From: Pseudomonadota bacterium | GTDB taxonomy: Bacteria; Desulfobacterota; Syntrophorhabdia; Syntrophorhabdales; Syntrophorhabdaceae | NCBI GenBank assembly: GCA_026388255.1 | Contig: JAPLKC010000093.1 | Span: 1-64,000 of the forward strand | Direction of reading: 5' to 3' | DNA length: 64,000 nucleotides | Part shown: in pieces, positions 4,708 to 52,591 of the stretch | Layout: every line of letters starts with the position of its first letter | Numbering within the stretch: position 1 is the first letter of the stretch | The notes under the pieces: model-generated | Database searches by the model: none | What the model was told of the DNA's origin: nothing | Seen by the model: only the letters and a program-made list of their open reading frames with translations | Position numbers and translations under genes: made by a program

Positions 4708-5178
4708 GTGAAAATAAACAGCATGTATAAGATTTTGAAAAACATACCCGGTGATTTCCCAATCATTGAGAGACCATACAAGGAAATGGCAGACAAAACA
4801 AGCATTAGTGAGGTCGAGCTATTGTCCGTACTCAATAAATTTAAAAAAGAAGGCATAATACGAAGAATCGCCGCTGTGCTTTATCATCGAAGGGCTCTAT
4901 ACACGCATAATGCAATGGTTGTCTGGAAGGTGAAGGATGCTGACATTGACAGGGTAGGGGGCATAATGGCTTCTTTCCCTGAGGTGAGCCACTGTTATGA
5001 GAGGGAAAAGGGAGGTTACTGGGATTACAATGTATATACCATGATACACGGAAAAAGCCTGGAAGACTGTAAGGAAATTGCCGGGCGCATATCAGATAGG
5101 ACCGGTATAAAAGACTTTCAAATGTTTTTCAGCCGGAGAGAATTTAAAAAGATACCGTTAAGGATGATTTATGAATAG
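4708..5178 (+). CDS. ahbB: Siroheme decarboxylase subunit, AhbB-like (Lrp/AsnC fold)
   Basis: 156 residues with an N-terminal winged-helix region of Lrp/AsnC type and a C-terminal alpha/beta domain. The sequence RRIAAVLYHRRA, then MVVWKV, VSHCYERE and YNVYTMIHG, matches the Ahb siroheme decarboxylase family. Those enzymes convert siroheme to didecarboxysiroheme in the alternative heme and heme d1 pathways. They usually work as an AhbA/AhbB heterodimer; only one subunit gene is visible here. The coding region overlaps hemL by 8 bases, which supports translational coupling and a tetrapyrrole role rather than gene regulation. The alternative reading is a plain Lrp-type regulator, which I consider less likely because of the conserved motifs. 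Confidence 0.82.
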   Translation: MKINSMYKILKNIPGDFPIIERPYKEMADKTSISEVELLSVLNKFKKEGIIRRIAAVLYHRRALYTHNAMVVWKVKDADIDRVGGIMASFPEVSHCYEREKGGYWDYNVYTMIHGKSLEDCKEIAGRISDRTGIKDFQMFFSRREFKKIPLRMIYE

Positions 5179-6469
5179 AAAAATATCGAGTGAATTATAT
5201 GCAGAAGCAAGGCAATACATGCCTGCCGGTGTAAACAGTCCTGTAAGGGCTTTTCAATCTGTTCACGATACGCCGTTTTATGTGAAAAAAGCCAAAGGTG
5301 CATACCTTTTTGATGTGGATGGAAACACCTACCTTGATTATGTTGCTTCATGGGGCGCAATAATCCTCGGACATGCCCACAACGGCCTTATTGAAGAAGT
5401 AAAGACAGCGCTTGATGAAGGCACAAGCTTCGGTGCCTGCCATCCCAACGAGATTAAACTGGCAAAGCTTATTACAGAAGCATTCCCTTCAATAAATCTT
5501 CTGAGGCTGACAAGCTCCGGCACAGAGGCAACAATGAGCGCCATAAGGCTTGCAAGAGGTTTTACCGGAAAAAACGGTGTCATAAAGTTTAAGGGCTGCT
5601 ATCACGGGCATGTTGACAGTCTTCTTGTAAAAGCAGGTTCAGGTCTGGCTACCTATGGAATACCTGACAGCGGGGGTATCCCGGAAGTACTTGCAAAATG
5701 TACATATGTTGCAGATTTTAATCATATCGATACGGTGCGGAATATTGTCAGAGAAAACAAGGATATTGCCTGTATCATACTTGAACCTGTCATGGGCAAT
5801 ATGGGGCTTATCCTGCCCGGAAAGGGATTTCTTGAGGATGTGCAGGAGATATGCAAACAAGAAGGGATTTTACTTATATTTGACGAAGTCATAACAGGCT
5901 TCAGGGTTGCATACGGCGGAGCGCAGCACATTTACGGGATTGATCCTGATATAACATGTCTTGGAAAAATAATCGGCGGAGGTTTTCCTATTGGCGCCTT
6001 TGGAGGCAAAAAAGAGATTATGAATATGATTGCCCCTCTCGGTGATGTTTATCAGGCTGGCACATTGTCGGGCAATCCCATTGCAGTAAGAGCAGGGATT
6101 TATGTGCTTGAGCATCTGAGAAAAAACAGCGACATATATAGTTCAATGGATAAAAAGATTGAAATGTTAAAAACACAGTTGCTTCAAATTGCGGATAAGT
6201 TCGGTATTCCTTACAAGATTAACCATATTACCGGGATGTTCACAGGATTTTTCTCCGAAAATAATGTCAACGATTACGAGGCCGCTCTGACATCAAACCG
6301 TGCGCTTTATGAACAGTTTTTCAAATTAATGCTTGAAGAGGGAATATTTTTTGCTCCAAGCCCATTTGAGGCTTCATTCTTAACAGCCTCTTACGGGGAC
6401 AAGGAATTATTGAGGACCATAGATGCCTGCGAAAAGGTTTTTAAAACGCTTAAAGGTTTTTATAAATGA
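5171..6469 (+). CDS. hemL: Glutamate-1-semialdehyde 2,1-aminomutase
   Basis: Converts glutamate-1-semialdehyde to 5-aminolevulinate in the C5 route to tetrapyrroles, using PLP. The 432 residues are the usual length. The N-terminus reads PAGVNSPVRAF, SSGTEATMSAIRLARG binds the cofactor phosphate, FDEVITGFR is the PLP-ring-binding stretch, and CLGKIIGGGFPIGAFGG carries the Schiff-base lysine. It overlaps ahbB by 8 bases and alr by 4. The preceding pathway enzyme, glutamyl-tRNA reductase (hemA), is encoded 22 kb away on the other strand, so the early pathway is split between two operons. Confidence 0.96.
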   Translation: MNRKISSELYAEARQYMPAGVNSPVRAFQSVHDTPFYVKKAKGAYLFDVDGNTYLDYVASWGAIILGHAHNGLIEEVKTALDEGTSFGACHPNEIKLAKLITEAFPSINLLRLTSSGTEATMSAIRLARGFTGKNGVIKFKGCYHGHVDSLLVKAGSGLATYGIPDSGGIPEVLAKCTYVADFNHIDTVRNIVRENKDIACIILEPVMGNMGLILPGKGFLEDVQEICKQEGILLIFDEVITGFRVAYGGAQHIYGIDPDITCLGKIIGGGFPIGAFGGKKEIMNMIAPLGDVYQAGTLSGNPIAVRAGIYVLEHLRKNSDIYSSMDKKIEMLKTQLLQIADKFGIPYKINHITGMFTGFFSENNVNDYEAALTSNRALYEQFFKLMLEEGIFFAPSPFEASFLTASYGDKELLRTIDACEKVFKTLKGFYK

Positions 6470-45951: not shown

Positions 45952-46896
45952 ATGAGTGAGATACTTTCAGTGTCAGAACTGAAAAGGACATATGAAGTTA
46001 AAAGAAGCGCCTTTTCATACGCTAAGGAAATAGTAAAAGCAGTTGACGGCGTATCTTTTCAGGTGGATAAGGGGAAAACCCTTGGCATTGTCGGTGAAAG
46101 CGGTTCAGGGAAAAGCACTCTGGCGCGATGCGTCATGTTCCTTGAAAGGCCGGACTCCGGGAAAATTGTCTTCCAAGGAAATATCCTGAATGAAATAAAT
46201 GGGCAGGATTTAAGGAAATTACGAAGAGAAATGCAGATTATCTTTCAGGACCCTTATTCCTCCCTCAATCCGAGAATGAAGATTTATGAAACCCTGGCTG
46301 AGCCTGTTTTATTCCATAATATTGTGCAAAAAGAGCATGTTATGGAAAAAGTCGAGGAAATACTTGAGATTGTCGGGCTAAGTACTGATTATCTTTACAA
46401 ATATCCACATGAAATGAGTGGAGGGCAAAGACAGAGGGTGGCAATAGGCCGTGCCCTTACGACAAATCCTTCCTTGATTGTTGCCGATGAACCTGTGTCG
46501 TCTCTTGATGTATCAATCCAGGCGCAGATAATAAACCTTTTCATGGATATAAAAGAAAAAGCCGGGATAACGATGCTCTTTATCTCCCACGATTTGAATG
46601 TTGTAAGGTTCTTATCAGACGAAATTATAGTTATGTATAAGGGCAGGGTGGTTGAAGCAGGGAAGGGGGATGAAGTATTTTATAATCCACTCCACCCTTA
46701 TACAAAAATGCTAATAGATTCCGTAAAAGGTAAATTCGCAAAAAGGGCAGGGGATGATGGACATGTGACAGGTGGGTGTCCATATTATCCGAGATGTGAA
46801 AGAAGGCAGCAGTCATGTTTAGTGGCGGAACCGGAACTGACTGGTTCCACCACCTCCACCAATAATCATGCTGCTGCATGCTTCTTGGTGGAGTAA
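45952..46896 (+). CDS. Dipeptide/oligopeptide ABC transporter ATPase, OppF/DppF type
   Basis: 314 residues. It has Walker A GESGSGKST, Q-loop IIFQDPYSSLNPRM, signature EMSGGQRQRVAIGRAL, Walker B LIVADEPVSSLD and switch histidine FISHD. The C-terminus contains GGCPYYPRCERRQQSC. Together with the preceding OppD-type subunit it forms the usual heterodimeric ATPase pair. The two may serve permeases encoded elsewhere. Confidence 0.92.
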   Translation: MSEILSVSELKRTYEVKRSAFSYAKEIVKAVDGVSFQVDKGKTLGIVGESGSGKSTLARCVMFLERPDSGKIVFQGNILNEINGQDLRKLRREMQIIFQDPYSSLNPRMKIYETLAEPVLFHNIVQKEHVMEKVEEILEIVGLSTDYLYKYPHEMSGGQRQRVAIGRALTTNPSLIVADEPVSSLDVSIQAQIINLFMDIKEKAGITMLFISHDLNVVRFLSDEIIVMYKGRVVEAGKGDEVFYNPLHPYTKMLIDSVKGKFAKRAGDDGHVTGGCPYYPRCERRQQSCLVAEPELTGSTTSTNNHAAACFLVE

Positions 46897-46899
46897 GAA

Positions 46900-47024
46900 G
46901 CCGAAGCGTTATTTCGCGGCAAACTTTGTCAACTGCAGGGTCGCACAATCCTCAACGTAGCGCTGCTACGCTTCCGGTTGGCAACCCTTTGTTTCCGCGT
47001 TATCCATCGAAATTCCGCTTCGGC
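46900..47024. repeat. Nested palindromic intergenic element, copy 1
   Basis: The outer arms GCCGAAGCG (46900-46908) and CGCTTCGGC (47016-47024) are exact complements. A central hairpin CGTAGC-GCT-GCTACG lies at 46956-46970. The layout (outer palindrome, inner CGTA...TACG hairpin, no ORF) matches the second element at 50776-50900. It lies directly after the OppF-type gene, at the left border of the accessory island. Confidence 0.65.
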
Positions 47025-47123
47025 AAGGAATAACTGATAATTTTTATGTAAGATAATTTATTGAAATAATGAAGAATGTTCCTAAATACTTTACCAAAGC
47101 GAGTAAAGGAGAGTGAGAACTCT

Positions 47124-47390
47124 ATGAAAAAGGATAAAGAATCTGATAAAGACGAATTACGGGCCGAGTATAAGAGTTCTGATTTTCCCGGCTGTCTTGT
47201 AAGGGGCAAATACGCAAAACGCATAAAAGAATCATCCAATATCGTTGTGCTTAAGCCAGAGGTTGCACAAGTATTTCCAAATGAAGAGGCAGTCAATAAC
47301 GCCCTTCTTTCACTTATTGAAATTGCGCAAAAAACAACAGGCCAATCAAAGCGTTCCACTGGATCGGCCACAAAACGTGCCTCCCGGTGA
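47124..47390 (+). CDS. Small conserved protein, antitoxin-like (orphan)
   Basis: About 88 residues from the ATG at 47124 (a 5' extension to 47076 is possible). The core ELRAEYKSSDF, LVRGKYAKRIKESSNIVVLKPEVAQVFP, NEEAVNNALLSLIEIAQ matches a widespread small family that usually sits next to a toxin or a nucleotidyltransferase, where it is proposed to be an antitoxin. Here no toxin gene of its own is adjacent; the next gene pair has its own antitoxin. This reading is by pattern only, and function is unproven. Confidence 0.6.
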   Translation: MKKDKESDKDELRAEYKSSDFPGCLVRGKYAKRIKESSNIVVLKPEVAQVFPNEEAVNNALLSLIEIAQKTTGQSKRSTGSATKRASR

Positions 47391-47591
47391 AATCTGTATT
47401 GGTAAGCCTGCAAACCACAGCCATCGCGTGCCTGCTTGCCCATCGAAAGTATTTCCGGCCAAAAAATAGTGTCTTTGTATGTTGATATACCACTGACCCA
47501 AAATAGTGTTTTGGATAATAACATGAAAAGATCGTTGACTATGGTATATTGATGCGGTATGATTAATTCATACTATGTGTGGAGGTATTAA

Positions 47592-47828
47592 ATGGCAACA
47601 GCAGTTAAGAGGACCATATCTCTTCCTCATGACCTTGCGAGAGAGATGGAATTTGTGGCCAAAGAAGAAGGCAAGACTATCAGCGCTTTGGTTCAGGATG
47701 CCGTAAGGATTTCGTTGAAGGAAAGGCAGAAAAAAGAGTTCTATCATATTCAGGGATACTGGAGTGATAAAGCAAAGGAAAAGGGCATTCTTACTGAAGA
47801 TGATCTTGAGGATTACCTGAAAAAGTGA
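47592..47828 (+). CDS. Ribbon-helix-helix antitoxin of a PIN module
   Basis: 78 residues. The N-terminal stretch VKRTISLPHDLAREMEFVAKEEGKTISALVQDAV is a CopG/RHH fold, which binds operator DNA; the C-terminal acidic tail (GILTEDDLEDYLKK) likely wraps the toxin. The gene overlaps the PIN toxin by 4 bases (GTGA), the classical arrangement for a type II toxin-antitoxin pair with autoregulation. Confidence 0.88.
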   Translation: MATAVKRTISLPHDLAREMEFVAKEEGKTISALVQDAVRISLKERQKKEFYHIQGYWSDKAKEKGILTEDDLEDYLKK

Positions 47829-48220
47829 AACTCGTTTTTGATACGAATATTTACATATCCGCATTTGTCATTCCTCACAGTAAAGCCGAGAAAGCGATTC
47901 TGAAGGTTATAGAAGGTAAAGACGCGCTGCTCATCTCAAAAGATATTATAAATGAGACACTTACAGTGCTTTCGACAAAATTCTATCGGGATAAAGAAGC
48001 ATTGAGTCATCTGGCAATCTATCTTTCAGAAATTGCTCAAATTGTGGAGCCGGTGGAGGTAAAGTTGACGGTACTTAAAGACGAACCTGACAATAGAATT
48101 CTTGAATGTGCTGTGTCGGGCAAAGCCGATGCTATCATAACCGGCGACAAGGAGATGCTCAAACTGAAAGAATTTAAGGGGATCAGGATCATGAGCTTGA
48201 GAGAATATTTGGAGAGTTAG
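47825..48220 (+). CDS. PIN-domain ribonuclease toxin
   Basis: 131 residues of the VapC-like PIN nuclease family, starting from GTG. Acidic active-site positions are seen in VFDTNIYISAF near residue 5, in the INETLTVL helix, in EPDNRILECA and in AIITGDKEML. It would cleave tRNA or rRNA when released from its RHH partner. Translational coupling with the antitoxin is through the GTGA overlap. Confidence 0.88.
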   Translation: MKLVFDTNIYISAFVIPHSKAEKAILKVIEGKDALLISKDIINETLTVLSTKFYRDKEALSHLAIYLSEIAQIVEPVEVKLTVLKDEPDNRILECAVSGKADAIITGDKEMLKLKEFKGIRIMSLREYLES

Positions 48221-48316
48221 TGAGTGATGTTGGAGTGATGGGCACGATGAGGACAGATTAATACTCTATAGTACTACTTCGCTCAGTTATTCGATATTGG
48301 AGAAAGCATACTTAGC

Positions 48317-50407
48317 ATGAAAATCGCACTGAAAGAATTGAAGCTTGCGTTACAGAGAGTTTCCACTGGCCGTAATATCGCATACAAAAGATTCTTTCGT
48401 TCCATGTATCTGGCATACCAACTGGCCGAGGAACAAAACTTGAACCGATTGAGGGACAAGCTCAAAGGTAGTTGGCAGCCGCAAAAGCCTTGGAGGATTT
48501 ACACTCCAAAGTCTTCAGGCCTACAACGACCCATCACACTTTTACATATTGAAGACCAGATTGTCTTGCAACTAATAGCAAATAGGATTGCCGACAAGTT
48601 GTATGCAAGGCGAAAAAAAATTGAATACCATGTGGCTTTTAGTAATGTGTTAGCCAGTGCAAAAGACAATGTCTTTTTTCTTGAGGATTGGCATAAAGCA
48701 TATTTAATTTTTCAAAAAAAATGTGAAGAAAATTATCGGAAAGGCTTTCGATGGATTGCTCATTTTGATTTGGCTGCATACTACGATACTATTTCGCATG
48801 AATTATTAATTAAGACTATTGCGCCAAAATCCCATGAAAAGGAACCTTGGAAGACTTATAAGAAATGGTTGGGTCTCTGGTCGTCTCCTGAAGGCGTTGA
48901 TGGACACGGGCATGGCATACCACAGGGCCCAATAGCTGCTGATTTTTTGGCTGAGGCATTCTTACTACCAATGGATGAAATGTTTTTAAAAAAAGGTGTC
49001 CGTTATGTCATATATGTTGACGACATACGCATTTTTACCAAGACAGAGTTGGCTGCGCAACAGGCAGCAGTTGAATTAGAGGTTTACTGTAGAAACCTTG
49101 GTTTGATCCCCCAAGGTAACAAGTTTGCAATCAAGAGAGCCGAAAAACTTAGTGATGCATTGGGTGCATTACCCAGCATTCAGCCACAAGATACTGTGCC
49201 TGCCGAAGAAATTCCTCAGATGACAATTGATGAAGCGGAACGACTCTTTTTGGGATCCCTGAACAAAAGACCTCTGAGAATAGACGACAATTCAAAAGCT
49301 CGATACGTCCTATTCCGGTCCCCTAAATCTAAGATAATCATGAATAAAGTTTTAATACTTCTGGCAAGACACCCAGAACATATAGATGTTTTTGCCAATT
49401 TCTTAAGAAATTACGACAAGAGCGCCCCACTTGAAAAGACAATATTGAAAATTTTTGAACAAGGTTCGCCATATGGATACGTAAGAGGAGAACTATATCA
49501 TATAATGGCTCGTATAGGAACTTTGGAGTCTTTGAGAATACTGCAAATGCAAGCAAAAAGAGACTTAAAAGACAAAAACGCATGTGTAGTATTGAAGTGG
49601 GGGGCAATTTCTCTCCTCCTTTCTTGTCAGAAGTTTGGCATATGTCGGATATCTAGTAGAATAACTAAGCAAGAGTCCATCGTCCAGGCTTTGTTGTTTC
49701 CGGTTATTCCAGATGAGGAGTTTTGTGAAAAAGGTATACTCAAGGACTTGATATCCGCAAAGGATTTTATGTCAGGCCTGTTGGCTCCCGAGCAACTTTT
49801 TATAAGAAGCCAGACGTTAAAAGATTATTTATTGAAACCGAAAGATTGTCATCCTGTGATACAAAACATATTAAAATCACTTGGAATAGTTGGCAAAAGG
49901 TTTTCGCCAAAAATTGACCAAATATCTGACATTTTATACAGAAAATTTGGTGTCAAGGAGAGCCAGTCTTGGCGAAAGCTTTTTTCGGATGAATTTACGC
50001 ATGTGTTACAAATACTTATACAAGCTGAAGTTTATTATCTTCCTGCCCCGAGTATTTGGATTCAGTGGCAAAACTCCTTTAACGACGCAGTGCAAAAAGC
50101 ATTACTTGCATACTTAAACAGTAGAAGCCTCGCAGGTGCTGGAAAAATCACTAATGCAAACAGCCAATTAATAGATTTTGGAGTCCGCTTGGACAACAAT
50201 ACGAGTTTTTCAAAAACTTACCCGTCCATTGCAGACGTTTTTAGAGATATGAATAAACGACGAAACAGTATTCCTGGTTCGCATCCTTACGAAAAGAAAA
50301 CTGGCAGTCAAACAAACTATTTGAAAACGCAAGAGAGAAATAAATTTGCTCACAGACTCAAGGCAGCATATGAAGAAATCATCAATATTATTGAAAACAA
50401 TCCTTAA
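48317..50407 (+). CDS. Reverse transcriptase with helical-repeat region and C-terminal HEPN motif (AbiA-like defence RT candidate)
   Basis: 696 residues. The RT domain (about 1-300) has motif A FDLAAYYD with Asp151, motif B GHGIPQGPIAADFLAEAF, and catalytic YVDD at residues 233-236, followed by the NKFAIKRAEK-type motif. There is no group II intron maturase region and no retron-like short length. Residues about 330-600 are predicted helical repeats. The C-terminus carries RNKFAH (Arg674-His679), the R-x4-H signature of HEPN ribonucleases. This RT-helical repeat-HEPN order is that of the lactococcal abortive-infection protein AbiA and related 'unknown group' defence RTs. The start at 48317 has only a distant GGAG. 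It lies between toxin-antitoxin modules. A defence role is inference. Confidence 0.85.
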   Translation: MKIALKELKLALQRVSTGRNIAYKRFFRSMYLAYQLAEEQNLNRLRDKLKGSWQPQKPWRIYTPKSSGLQRPITLLHIEDQIVLQLIANRIADKLYARRKKIEYHVAFSNVLASAKDNVFFLEDWHKAYLIFQKKCEENYRKGFRWIAHFDLAAYYDTISHELLIKTIAPKSHEKEPWKTYKKWLGLWSSPEGVDGHGHGIPQGPIAADFLAEAFLLPMDEMFLKKGVRYVIYVDDIRIFTKTELAAQQAAVELEVYCRNLGLIPQGNKFAIKRAEKLSDALGALPSIQPQDTVPAEEIPQMTIDEAERLFLGSLNKRPLRIDDNSKARYVLFRSPKSKIIMNKVLILLARHPEHIDVFANFLRNYDKSAPLEKTILKIFEQGSPYGYVRGELYHIMARIGTLESLRILQMQAKRDLKDKNACVVLKWGAISLLLSCQKFGICRISSRITKQESIVQALLFPVIPDEEFCEKGILKDLISAKDFMSGLLAPEQLFIRSQTLKDYLLKPKDCHPVIQNILKSLGIVGKRFSPKIDQISDILYRKFGVKESQSWRKLFSDEFTHVLQILIQAEVYYLPAPSIWIQWQNSFNDAVQKALLAYLNSRSLAGAGKITNANSQLIDFGVRLDNNTSFSKTYPSIADVFRDMNKRRNSIPGSHPYEKKTGSQTNYLKTQERNKFAHRLKAAYEEIINIIENNP

Positions 50408-50690
50408 AGGCTCTTGTCGTGCGAGGAGGGCTTAGAGGAAATCCTATAATCCTCCTGTCAAGTAAATTATGGCTTAACCCCTGTAGAATATGCAGAGCGA
50501 ATGATATTGACAGGATGAATACAAAACCTCTAAACTTGTGTTGTACTAAAGAGGGGGGGTATGGTCACTCCCCCTGCATAATGTATTGCGTTCTATGCTT
50601 CTTTCTGACCTGCGAAGTTGAATTGTATTCTTTATTTAACTACTTTTATTAAGGTTTTTTCAATTGTTTTATTTCATAAAAAACTGTTTT

Positions 50691-50730
50691 GCCAGGTTGA
50701 CCCCTGAGAAAAGTCTCTCTCAGAATAAAG
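50691..50730. repeat. Degenerate dispersed repeat fragment A, copy 1
   Basis: The segment with TGACCCCTGAGAAAAGTCTC resembles the stretch at 52817-52855 (AGACCCCGGAGAAAAGTCTC) for about 35 bases, both continuing into CTCAGA or CCCAGA. No coding potential. Confidence 0.5.
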
Positions 50731-50775
50731 AAGATGTGATAAAACAAGCGCTGGCTTGGGTTTGCAGATGATTTA

Positions 50776-50900
50776 TTCCATTCCTAAATCAAAGCGCTAC
50801 CATCGTTGCCTTCGTCGTCGGTGTCTCGACGTACCGTTTTAGTACGCCTACGCCACCTCTTCCTTGCCGCCTTGATATCATCTTTGATTTAGAAATGGAA
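50776..50900. repeat. Nested palindromic intergenic element, copy 2
   Basis: The outer arms are 19 bases (50776-50794 and 50882-50900) and pair with one mismatch. A central hairpin CGTAC-CGTTTTA-GTACG lies at 50830-50846. The total length, 125 bases, equals that of the element at 46900-47024, although the sequences differ. Confidence 0.65.
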
Positions 50901-51059
50901 TTAGATTTGCAGCAACAGTTGCTGAAAATTGGATGTACGAATTATAAATATCTCCCTGCCACTGGTTGAAAATATTCCAATGTGCCGTTCCCGCCCCCCC
51001 CTCAAAATATTTGCTAACACAGTGTTAGAAAATATAAATATTCTCGTAAAACCAATATG

Positions 51060-51142
51060 GCTCAGGAGCTATTTTATTCCATTAAAAGGCAGCACTTGAC
51101 GGTGCCGTCCTTAAATATTTCAATATATTTTTGTTGTGGCCT
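51060..51142. repeat. Degenerate dispersed repeat fragment B, copy 1
   Basis: This aligns with 55107-55183: GAGCTATTTTATTCCATTAAAAGG matches GAGCCATTTATTTCATTAAATGG (in pieces), then TTGACGGTGCCGTCCTTAAATATTTC matches CTGACGGGGCCATCCTTCAATATTTC. Both are flanked by accessory genes. Likely remnants of an ancestral mobile repeat. Confidence 0.5.
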
Positions 51143-51146
51143 GTCT

Positions 51147-51479
51147 TCATAACATTTTTTCCAGTTGCTCGACAAAACCTGGCAGATCTTCCTTTGCTAT
51201 GCTCCAAACCACATCAATATTAACGCCGAAATAGTCGTGGATCAGTTTGTCTCTTGTACCTGCAATTTCTTTCCATGTTATATTGGGATGTCTTTTTTTA
51301 ATATTATCAGATAGAAGTTTGACTGCCTCTCCAATAATCTCGATATTTCTGATTACGGCATCTTGAGTTTTGTGGTCTTGCAGGAAATTGTCATATTCCA
51401 TTTGTTCAATATATGACCGGATCCGATGAGCACATTCAATAATATCTTGAACGAGTTCCTGATCGTTTCGTTTAGACAT
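51147..51479 (-). CDS. hepT: HepT-type toxin (DUF86 HEPN ribonuclease family)
   Basis: 110 residues. It has the helical HEPN fold with the active motif R-x4-H-x-Y in TRDKLIHDYFG near residue 80. Such HepT proteins pair with MntA nucleotidyltransferase antitoxins, which AMPylate the tyrosine and silence the toxin. The partner gene is immediately upstream (8-base overlap). The motif residues are intact, so the module may be functional. Confidence 0.9.
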   Translation of the reverse strand: MSKRNDQELVQDIIECAHRIRSYIEQMEYDNFLQDHKTQDAVIRNIEIIGEAVKLLSDNIKKRHPNITWKEIAGTRDKLIHDYFGVNIDVVWSIAKEDLPGFVEQLEKML

Positions 51480-51774
51480 AGGTCAGGGTGCTTCGTATGT
51501 CATCTGCGACCTTCTTTACGCGTATATTTTCAAGACCGTCACGCGTTAGAAGATCCACTTTTCTTCCAAGAATTTCCTCAAGGTATTCGACAAGCCTGAT
51601 AAATTTGAGGCCCATGGGCCGGCTGAACTCTACAATAAGGTCAATATCGCTGCTATCGTTATCGGCTCCCGTAGCGACAGAACCGAAGAGACCAATCTTC
51701 TCAACACCAAATTCTGAAGAAAGATAGTCACGCTGTTTTCTTATCTTTTCTATCGCTTCGTTTTTAATAGCCAT
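51472..51774 (-). CDS. mntA: MntA-type minimal nucleotidyltransferase antitoxin
   Basis: About 100 residues from the ATG at 51774, which follows GAGG at good spacing (an upstream start at 51783 is possible). It has the minimal nucleotidyltransferase motif G-S-x10-D-x-D in LFGSVATGADNDSSDIDLIVEF. It should transfer AMP to the HepT tyrosine. Overlap with hepT suggests a coupled toxin-antitoxin operon, with the antitoxin first. Confidence 0.9.
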   Translation of the reverse strand: MAIKNEAIEKIRKQRDYLSSEFGVEKIGLFGSVATGADNDSSDIDLIVEFSRPMGLKFIRLVEYLEEILGRKVDLLTRDGLENIRVKKVADDIRSTLTYV

Positions 51775-51797
51775 TTTATGCACCTCAATTCTTCATT

Positions 51798-51905
51798 CTA
51801 CGCATAAATGGTTATGTCGTCAATCTTATTTTCAAATTTGTCTTGAATATGCTTTGGCAATTCCTTGAAATTTCTTTTAAAGGAATCAGTATGGATTATT
51901 TTCAT
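51798..51905 (-). pseudogene. Truncated RelE/ParE-superfamily toxin, remnant 1 (35 aa)
   Basis: The open frame MKIIHTDSFKRNFKELPKHI and on to the stop (35 codons) matches only the N-terminal third of a RelE-fold toxin (usually 85-95 residues). Its ATG overlaps the TGA of the antitoxin gene above (ATGA). The catalytic C-terminal strands are absent and no remaining part is found before mntA, so it is probably dead. Confidence 0.7.
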
Positions 51906-52159
51906 GCCTTTAGGTCGGCAAGGAATTCATCAACTGAAGAAAAGCTTTTAACTCTGCCCTTTTTGATGTCGTTATCAGCTTCCTTCTCCGCTTTATCCCA
52001 ATCATAATTTTTGAAATACAGGGGAAAGGATAACGCATACTTAATAAGCTCAAATACTGCTGCAGCGTCATCGGTTATTTTTGATTTTTTCTTGAAATCA
52101 GAGATTCCGGCAAATATTTCATCAGGTATATCCATAGTAATTTTATGACTTGTTTTCAT
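51902..52159 (-). CDS. Antitoxin gene left by truncated toxin 1
   Basis: 85 residues with a strong ribosome-binding site (AGGAGG, six bases from the ATG). The sequence MKTSHKITMDIPDEIFAGISDF and later KEADNDIKKGRVKSFSSVDEFLADL has the layout of a small antitoxin: a DNA-binding or dimerisation front and a toxin-wrapping tail with the S-(F/V)-x-S-x-x-E-(F/A) pattern seen in RelB-type antitoxins. I cannot name the subfamily. It overlaps the toxin remnant by 4 bases. It appears intact. Confidence 0.65.
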   Translation of the reverse strand: MKTSHKITMDIPDEIFAGISDFKKKSKITDDAAAVFELIKYALSFPLYFKNYDWDKAEKEADNDIKKGRVKSFSSVDEFLADLKA

Positions 52160-52238: not shown

Positions 52239-52352
52239 TTACAATAGTGGAGAAATATATTCATCGATTTTTTTTTCAAGAGATCTTTTGAAACGAGGCT
52301 CTATTTTTTCAATTTGTTTCAGAAATTCGGATGTAAGAAAAATCCGGTACAT
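52239..52352 (-). pseudogene. Truncated RelE-superfamily toxin, remnant 2 (37 aa)
   Basis: The frame MYRIFLTSEFLKQIEKIEPR and on to EYISPLL-stop matches the N-terminus of a RelE-fold mRNA interferase or gyrase toxin (family length about 85-95) and ends abruptly. Its ATG overlaps the antitoxin stop by one base (TGATG). The sequence directly downstream is the repeat fragment at 52204-52238. Confidence 0.72.
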
Positions 52353-52591
52353 CAGAGAAGCTGACCTTTGTGATTCTTGTAATCATCGATCCCCCGGTTC
52401 ATCGAATCCTTTAGCGTTGTATTGGAATTTATCTCTGCCATCTCGAATTCATCAACAAATTCAATTTCGTTGATGTACCGCAATGCGGCTGTTTCAATAA
52501 AATTAGAGAGAGGCCTGTTTTCTTGTTCAGCTATTGTCTTGAAGGTGTTATATACCTCATCATTAAGCCTGAGTGTTACTACTTTTGCCAT
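52352..52591 (-). CDS. RHH-type antitoxin left by truncated toxin 2
   Basis: 79 residues, preceded by AGGAGG. MAKVVTLRLNDEVYNTFKTIA and NRPLSNFIETAALRYI form a CopG-like ribbon-helix-helix DNA-binding domain; the rest (EFEMAEINSNTTLKDSMNRG) would wrap the toxin. The gene itself looks intact, while its toxin partner at 52239-52352 is truncated, so it is probably a toxin-less antitoxin. Confidence 0.78.
   Translation of the reverse strand: MAKVVTLRLNDEVYNTFKTIAEQENRPLSNFIETAALRYINEIEFVDEFEMAEINSNTTLKDSMNRGIDDYKNHKGQLL

Follow-up and report, generated by a model that had tools for sequence, protein, structure and literature searches.

A UG19 reverse transcriptase with a predicted AbiA-like RT, helical and HEPN architecture is very probably an antiviral enzyme

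The window analysed here, a stretch of 64,000 nucleotides, carries on its plus strand an intact open reading frame (48317-50407) encoding 696 amino acids plus a stop, as read from the open-reading-frame list and its translation. By profile and phylogeny this gene is a member of UG19, a known but uncharacterised group of reverse transcriptases (RTs) that PADLOC holds as a candidate defence group. Because its predicted build resembles that of AbiA and its relatives often lie inside restriction-modification (R-M) operons, the enzyme is very probably antiviral. The reading we prefer, to which we assign a probability of about 0.55, is that it would be a single-protein antiphage RT working like AbiA. 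The literature searched contains no functional or structural characterisation of UG19. The parts of the gene are as follows.

48317..50407, plus strand: UG19 reverse transcriptase gene, 696 aa (open reading frame; PADLOC RT_UG19, E 6.9e-131, residues 4-692)
48317..49186, plus strand: RT domain, fingers and palm, about residues 1-290 (Pfam RVT_1 at 64-272; VIA-align)
48767..48769, plus strand: codon of motif A Asp151 (invariant, 74/74)
48914..48931, plus strand: GIPQGP motif, residues 200-205 (PQGP invariant, 74/74)
49013..49024, plus strand: YVDD motif, residues 233-236 (Y, D and D each 74/74)
49175..49177, plus strand: Ser287 in the RT-helical linker, candidate protein-priming residue (29/29 in clade 1, the clade of the window RT)
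49226..49876, plus strand: predicted alpha-helical domain, about residues 304-520 (AlphaFold2 model; AbiK, DRT4, DRT6 and UG15 align through here)
49967..50404, plus strand: predicted C-terminal HEPN fold, about residues 551-696 (AlphaFold2; HEPN proteins as best structural matches)
50261..50284, plus strand: HEPN motif R649-NSIPGS-H656, R-x6-H (R 73/74, H 74/74; RNSNPVSH in AbiA)
50336..50353, plus strand: R674-NKFA-H679, taken for the motif earlier, a chance match (R 15/74, H 3/74; shuffles)

A hmmscan with the PADLOC profiles gave a full-length match to RT_UG19 at 436 bits, and the runner-up, UG21, reached 176 bits over residues 4-434 only. This supports the proposal of the preliminary description that the gene encodes a candidate defence RT; its further statement, that the subgroup could not be decided by eye and may be new, does not hold, since profile and tree place the protein in a group that is already known. 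In a maximum-likelihood tree of RT domains from UG19, UG21, UG9, DRT8, group II and RT-Cas1 proteins, the window RT fell inside a single UG19 clade (bootstrap 99, SH-aLRT 97). Group II and RT-Cas1 proteins formed a separate clade (support 100/99), and the UG21, UG9 and DRT8 relatives were drawn on the UG19 side with weak support. By tree and profile these three are the RT lineages nearest to UG19, but with shorter profiles (493-541 positions; UG9_large 772) that match UG19 over the RT and helical parts only. A search of 395 genomes from the phylum turned up no AbiA homologue above the cut-off, so that the tree is without AbiA. Clustering with retrons, group II introns or DGRs had been named beforehand as evidence against a defence RT; of these three the tree covers group II alone, and no clustering with it was seen. 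UG19 itself divides into three clades, and the nearest relative of the window RT, 63% identical, comes from a 5.6-kb contig in a MAG that carries the label Thermoplasmata, perhaps through mis-binning.

Conservation was counted on an alignment of 74 full-length UG19 relatives, in which D151, PQGP, Y233, D235, D236 and K269 are all invariant, as expected of an intact gene under strong conservation at its catalytic residues. The three RT motifs described beforehand (Asp151, GIPQGP and YVDD) thus all lie at the positions claimed for them, within an invariant core. Just before YVDD the family residue is Arg (73/74), and the window RT, with Ile232, is the sole exception. In all, the window RT shares with UG19 the full-length profile, the clade, the catalytic motifs and the C-terminal domain, and differs from the group by this Ile for Arg at 232 and by having no adjoining R-M gene.

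Could the protein be the ordinary RT of a mobile element or intron, with no part in defence? Among PDB sequences it is indeed matched best by the RT of a group II intron, and group II RTs also give the best alignments of the generic RT core. We nevertheless consider this highly improbable. Against the group II intron RT/maturase model TIGR04416 (NCBIfam) the protein scored 87 bits, with a cut-off of 300 and scores of 303-434 for group II RTs of the same phylum; the separate UG19 clade in the tree contradicts group II identity; and no intron or retron RNA was found within 46.8-53.1 kb. These results speak against a group II intron RT or maturase. A retron found no support either, the St85 profile giving 13 against 235 bits and retron RNA, for the retron types that were covered, being absent up to E 1. 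The 740-nt gap downstream of the window RT holds a sub-threshold match to the Rfam RT-7 RNA (50394-50569, just behind the RT), full-length but at 18.6 against 116.8 bits, and it was set aside as chance. In five UG19 loci genes are tightly packed on both sides of the RT and leave no room for a flanking ncRNA, which argues against an adjacent ncRNA in this group, of the essential kind encoded next to DRT2, DRT3 and DRT9; in a scan of 18 relatives at the Rfam gathering thresholds the only hits were one tmRNA and one group II intron. On viral contigs, none of the six peptide patterns tried found a relative. Phage and plasmid records gave short matches to the RT core only, the plasmid rows being mostly annotated group II intron RTs.

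AlphaFold2 (AF2) modelled the full chain with a pLDDT of 91.5 and a pTM of 0.88 from a 57-row alignment, and the model shows three parts, in which the RT domain is followed by a helical domain and, at the C-terminus, by a HEPN fold. Residues 1-285 aligned by VIA-align with a group II RT at Z 23, and the long helical middle, previously read from the letters, reappears in this high-confidence model. Among the solved structures listed by VIA-align, AbiA alone aligned end to end: chain 8oz7_C spanned residues 1-696 of the model with Z 18.5, 474 aligned residues and 13% identity. Alignments to AbiK, DRT4, DRT6 and Abi-P2 ended at residue 489-522 and that to UG15 at 574. The RT and helical domains of AbiK, Abi-P2, DRT4 (UG15) and DRT6 align over about 395-440 residues (Z 16-20), but these proteins, unlike UG19, have no HEPN domain. 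AbiA (PDB 8oz7, from Lactococcus) has the same order of RT, helical and C-terminal HEPN domains as UG19, so that the AbiA-like architecture proposed in the preliminary description is borne out by AF2 and VIA-align over the whole chain. Superposition of the whole chain on AbiA gave an rmsd of 20.7, suggesting that the match holds domain by domain and not as a rigid whole; the relative placement of the domains in AbiA differs from that in the window model, which means that the arrangement either differs or was mispredicted. The hexamer that had been expected of an AbiA-like fold was a misattribution, AbiA being a dimer (PMC11077055). A viral structure library returned generic polymerase matches only.

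When the last 166 residues (531-696) were modelled alone by AF2 the pLDDT was 97.3. The best structural matches of this HEPN domain by VIA-align were HepT toxins, sacsin HEPN, RnlA and LsoA, and HEPN proteins made up most of the best 16. Since the best Z, 8.6, is modest for helical bundles, and no Foldseek match of the same domain was significant (lowest E-value 0.59, to a HepT toxin), we base the HEPN call on the HEPN-filled top ranks of VIA-align together with the conserved R-x6-H. Sacsin and HEPN toxins are also the reported neighbours of the AbiA HEPN domain (PMC11077055).

R649 and H656 are near-invariant in all three deep clades, with C-terminal identities to the window RT of only 13-63%. 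The HEPN His lies about 40 residues short of the C-terminus in both the window RT and AbiA, whose length we take to be about 628 residues (the modelled chain of 8oz7 ends at 626). AbiA carries the same R-x6-H motif, RNSNPVSH at 581-588 (PMC11077055), where the window RT has RNSIPGSH. The preliminary description had proposed a C-terminal HEPN with R674-x4-H679 as its motif. The fold stands in the high-confidence models, but the motif does not: R674 is kept in 15 and H679 in 3 of the 74 relatives, and shuffling this protein yields an R-x4-H in 59% of cases (R-x4-6-H in 93%). The RNKFAH segment is therefore inside the HEPN-fold domain without being its motif, and the R674/H679 mutants once proposed would miss R649/H656. 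Out of 57 UG19 C-termini searched with Pfam none matched the AbiA family HEPN_AbiA_CTD (PF18732) or any other HEPN model, and a UG19 HEPN profile found no match among PDB sequences, AbiA included. The likeness between the HEPN domains of UG19 and AbiA is thus one of fold, order and motif, and not of detectable sequence.

This conservation can be read another way, with the HEPN domain as the main effector, an RNase on host or phage RNA, and the RT activity only sensing infection or regulating HEPN. HEPN RNases have R-x4-6-H as their catalytic signature (PMC3710099; PMC11077055), and the near-invariance of R649 and H656 across such divergent C-termini fits a catalytic role. AbiA has the same motif, however, and there no RNase activity was found, the R581A/H588A protein kept defence and the polymerase was required (PMC11077055); in UG19, moreover, the RT active site is equally invariant. 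We therefore judge this reading unlikely. The same AbiA results weaken the preliminary suggestion of HEPN as an RNase effector, the motif being dispensable there, but the near-invariance in UG19 leaves room for it in part, and R649 and H656 may add RNase activity.

The genes around the window RT, listed below, include toxin-antitoxin-like pairs on both sides.

47592..47828, plus strand: RHH antitoxin-like ORF (Pfam RHH_5, below cut-off)
47825..48220, plus strand: PIN toxin-like ORF, 96 nt upstream of the RT (Pfam PIN_3, E 1.3e-20)
51147..51479, minus strand: HepT-like HEPN toxin (Pfam HepT-like, E 4.6e-30)
51472..51783, minus strand: MntA-like nucleotidyltransferase antitoxin (Pfam NTP_transf_2, E 8.7e-15; PADLOC PDC-S09)

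These Pfam matches and a dispersed repeat agree with the toxin-antitoxin modules and repeats noted around the RT beforehand. The repeat (50775-50904) is MITE-like, about 130 bp long, with 20-nt terminal inverted repeats that are 95% complementary; a 521-bp query around it gave 23 matches in the genome of the window and 44 in a congener. A second repeated stretch (50905-51060) recurs several times in the congener slot (G001 contig 58), near toxin-antitoxin-like genes. Further small ORFs lie on the minus strand at 51902-52159 and 52352-52591, the latter RHH/DUF6290-like and possibly an antitoxin. On one side, as far as 46894, the flank that carries guaB and two opp-type ABC genes shares 87% identity with one congener; on the other, from 51391, the hepT-mntA flank shares 94%. 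Between these conserved flanks the stretch 46895-51390 varies, and in the same slot congener G001 (L141) has genes for SduA of Shedu (497 bits), for a Fic protein and for an AAA ATPase; different genes between conserved flanks indicate a variable slot that takes defence genes. No R-M gene lies beside the window RT, and its genome has a single match to a type I specificity domain, which lies on a different contig.

In the relatives the neighbourhood is often one of R-M. Of 80 loci, 16 have type I R-M genes no more than three ORFs from the RT, a raw count in which three loci come from one organism, and the RT stands directly behind hsdS in 12 of the 80, with gaps of -5 to 26 nt; blast similarity served to cluster the neighbours, and a profile check of HsdM and HsdS covered one locus (L045). 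Other UG19 RTs lie by a type III methylase and restriction subunit (L059), near a related ResIII protein (L060), by a DISARM-like methylase (L098 and, by similarity, L058) or by an IIG-like methylase (L089). The remaining neighbours are housekeeping genes, so the R-M link is frequent but not universal: by blast clusters none of the eight clade 3 members has type I genes nearby, and many other relatives lack them too. Nor is the association new in kind, since AbiA-CTD RTs in R-M operons have already been reported (PMC3710099); it is common to them and UG19. Together with the Shedu and Fic genes of the congener slot, these R-M neighbours support the defence-island setting that had been proposed. 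One locus (L099) has a tmRNA gene, a usual integration site, at 5087-5436, about 4.5 kb upstream of its UG19-hsd genes. One Desulfofustis MAG holds three hsdM-hsdS-UG19 loci (L056, L064 and L116) whose RT open frames are cut short, and all three have one transposase-like ORF family within three ORFs downstream.

Such loci raise the possibility that a restriction enzyme silences the UG19 RT-HEPN protein until a phage anti-restriction factor frees it, whereupon the polymerase or a HEPN RNase would shut the cell down. The position directly behind hsdS in 12 loci and the type III and DISARM-like or IIG neighbours speak for it, as does PrrC, which is silenced by its linked type I enzyme and activated by a phage anti-restriction factor (PMC2610378); the earlier note of AbiA-CTD RTs in R-M operons points the same way. 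PrrC, like the R-M-linked UG19 proteins, is a HEPN protein encoded with a type I system, in its case inside the hsd operon, but it is an anticodon nuclease of known regulation with an ABC ATPase domain where UG19 has the RT. On the other side, the window copy has no adjoining R-M gene, many relatives, among them all of clade 3, lack nearby type I genes, and co-location in a defence island is no proof of regulation. Guarding of this kind is attractive for the hsdS-linked members and a poor direct fit to the window copy, and overall we regard it as doubtful. Equally tentative is a wider proposal, in which UG19 would form a second defence lineage of RT-HEPN proteins, its HEPN family missing from Pfam and its priming residue unlike that of AbiA, repeatedly placed behind hsdS, and also in loci of type III or DISARM-like character, to act as a back-up when restriction fails, the polymerase replacing the ATPase of PrrC.

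For the window RT we keep to the AbiA-like reading. Defence by AbiA requires its polymerase, and the HEPN domain dimerises the protein, which primes at Tyr298 or Tyr303 in the linker between the RT and helical domains; in AbiK the primer lies, according to the same paper, between N-terminal helices (PMC11077055). DRT4 offers a precedent for template-independent, protein-primed DNA synthesis (PMC13213688). By analogy with these three proteins, the HEPN domains of the window RT would pair two protomers, the RT would add dNTPs to a hydroxyl residue of its own and make single-stranded DNA without an outside template, and this product, or an enzyme triggered by a phage factor, would block phage replication. 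Linker residues 276-303 of the window RT contain no Tyr and hence no counterpart of the AbiA priming tyrosines, so that the primer is probably another residue. Linker tyrosines are mostly absent in clades 1 and 2 and mostly present in clade 3. Judging from its conservation in clade 1, Ser287 is a candidate, and clade 2 has an invariant Ser (37/37) at the neighbouring column. Tyr23, kept in 71 of the 74 relatives, sits between the N-terminal helices, and priming from it as in AbiK is a lead, not a result.

What is observed or predicted in favour of the AbiA-like reading is the catalytic RT site, the helical domain, the HEPN fold with its R-x6-H and the defence-type context. Counted against it are the absence of PF18732 matches, the rmsd on AbiA, the linker without Tyr, Ile232 and the lone type I specificity match off the contig. 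For UG19 as a group, this analysis supplies a domain architecture, corrects the HEPN motif at which mutants should be aimed and shows a recurrent position behind hsdS. Two questions can now be tested: how DNA synthesis starts in an RT without the AbiA tyrosines, and whether RT-HEPN proteins stand guard over restriction enzymes.
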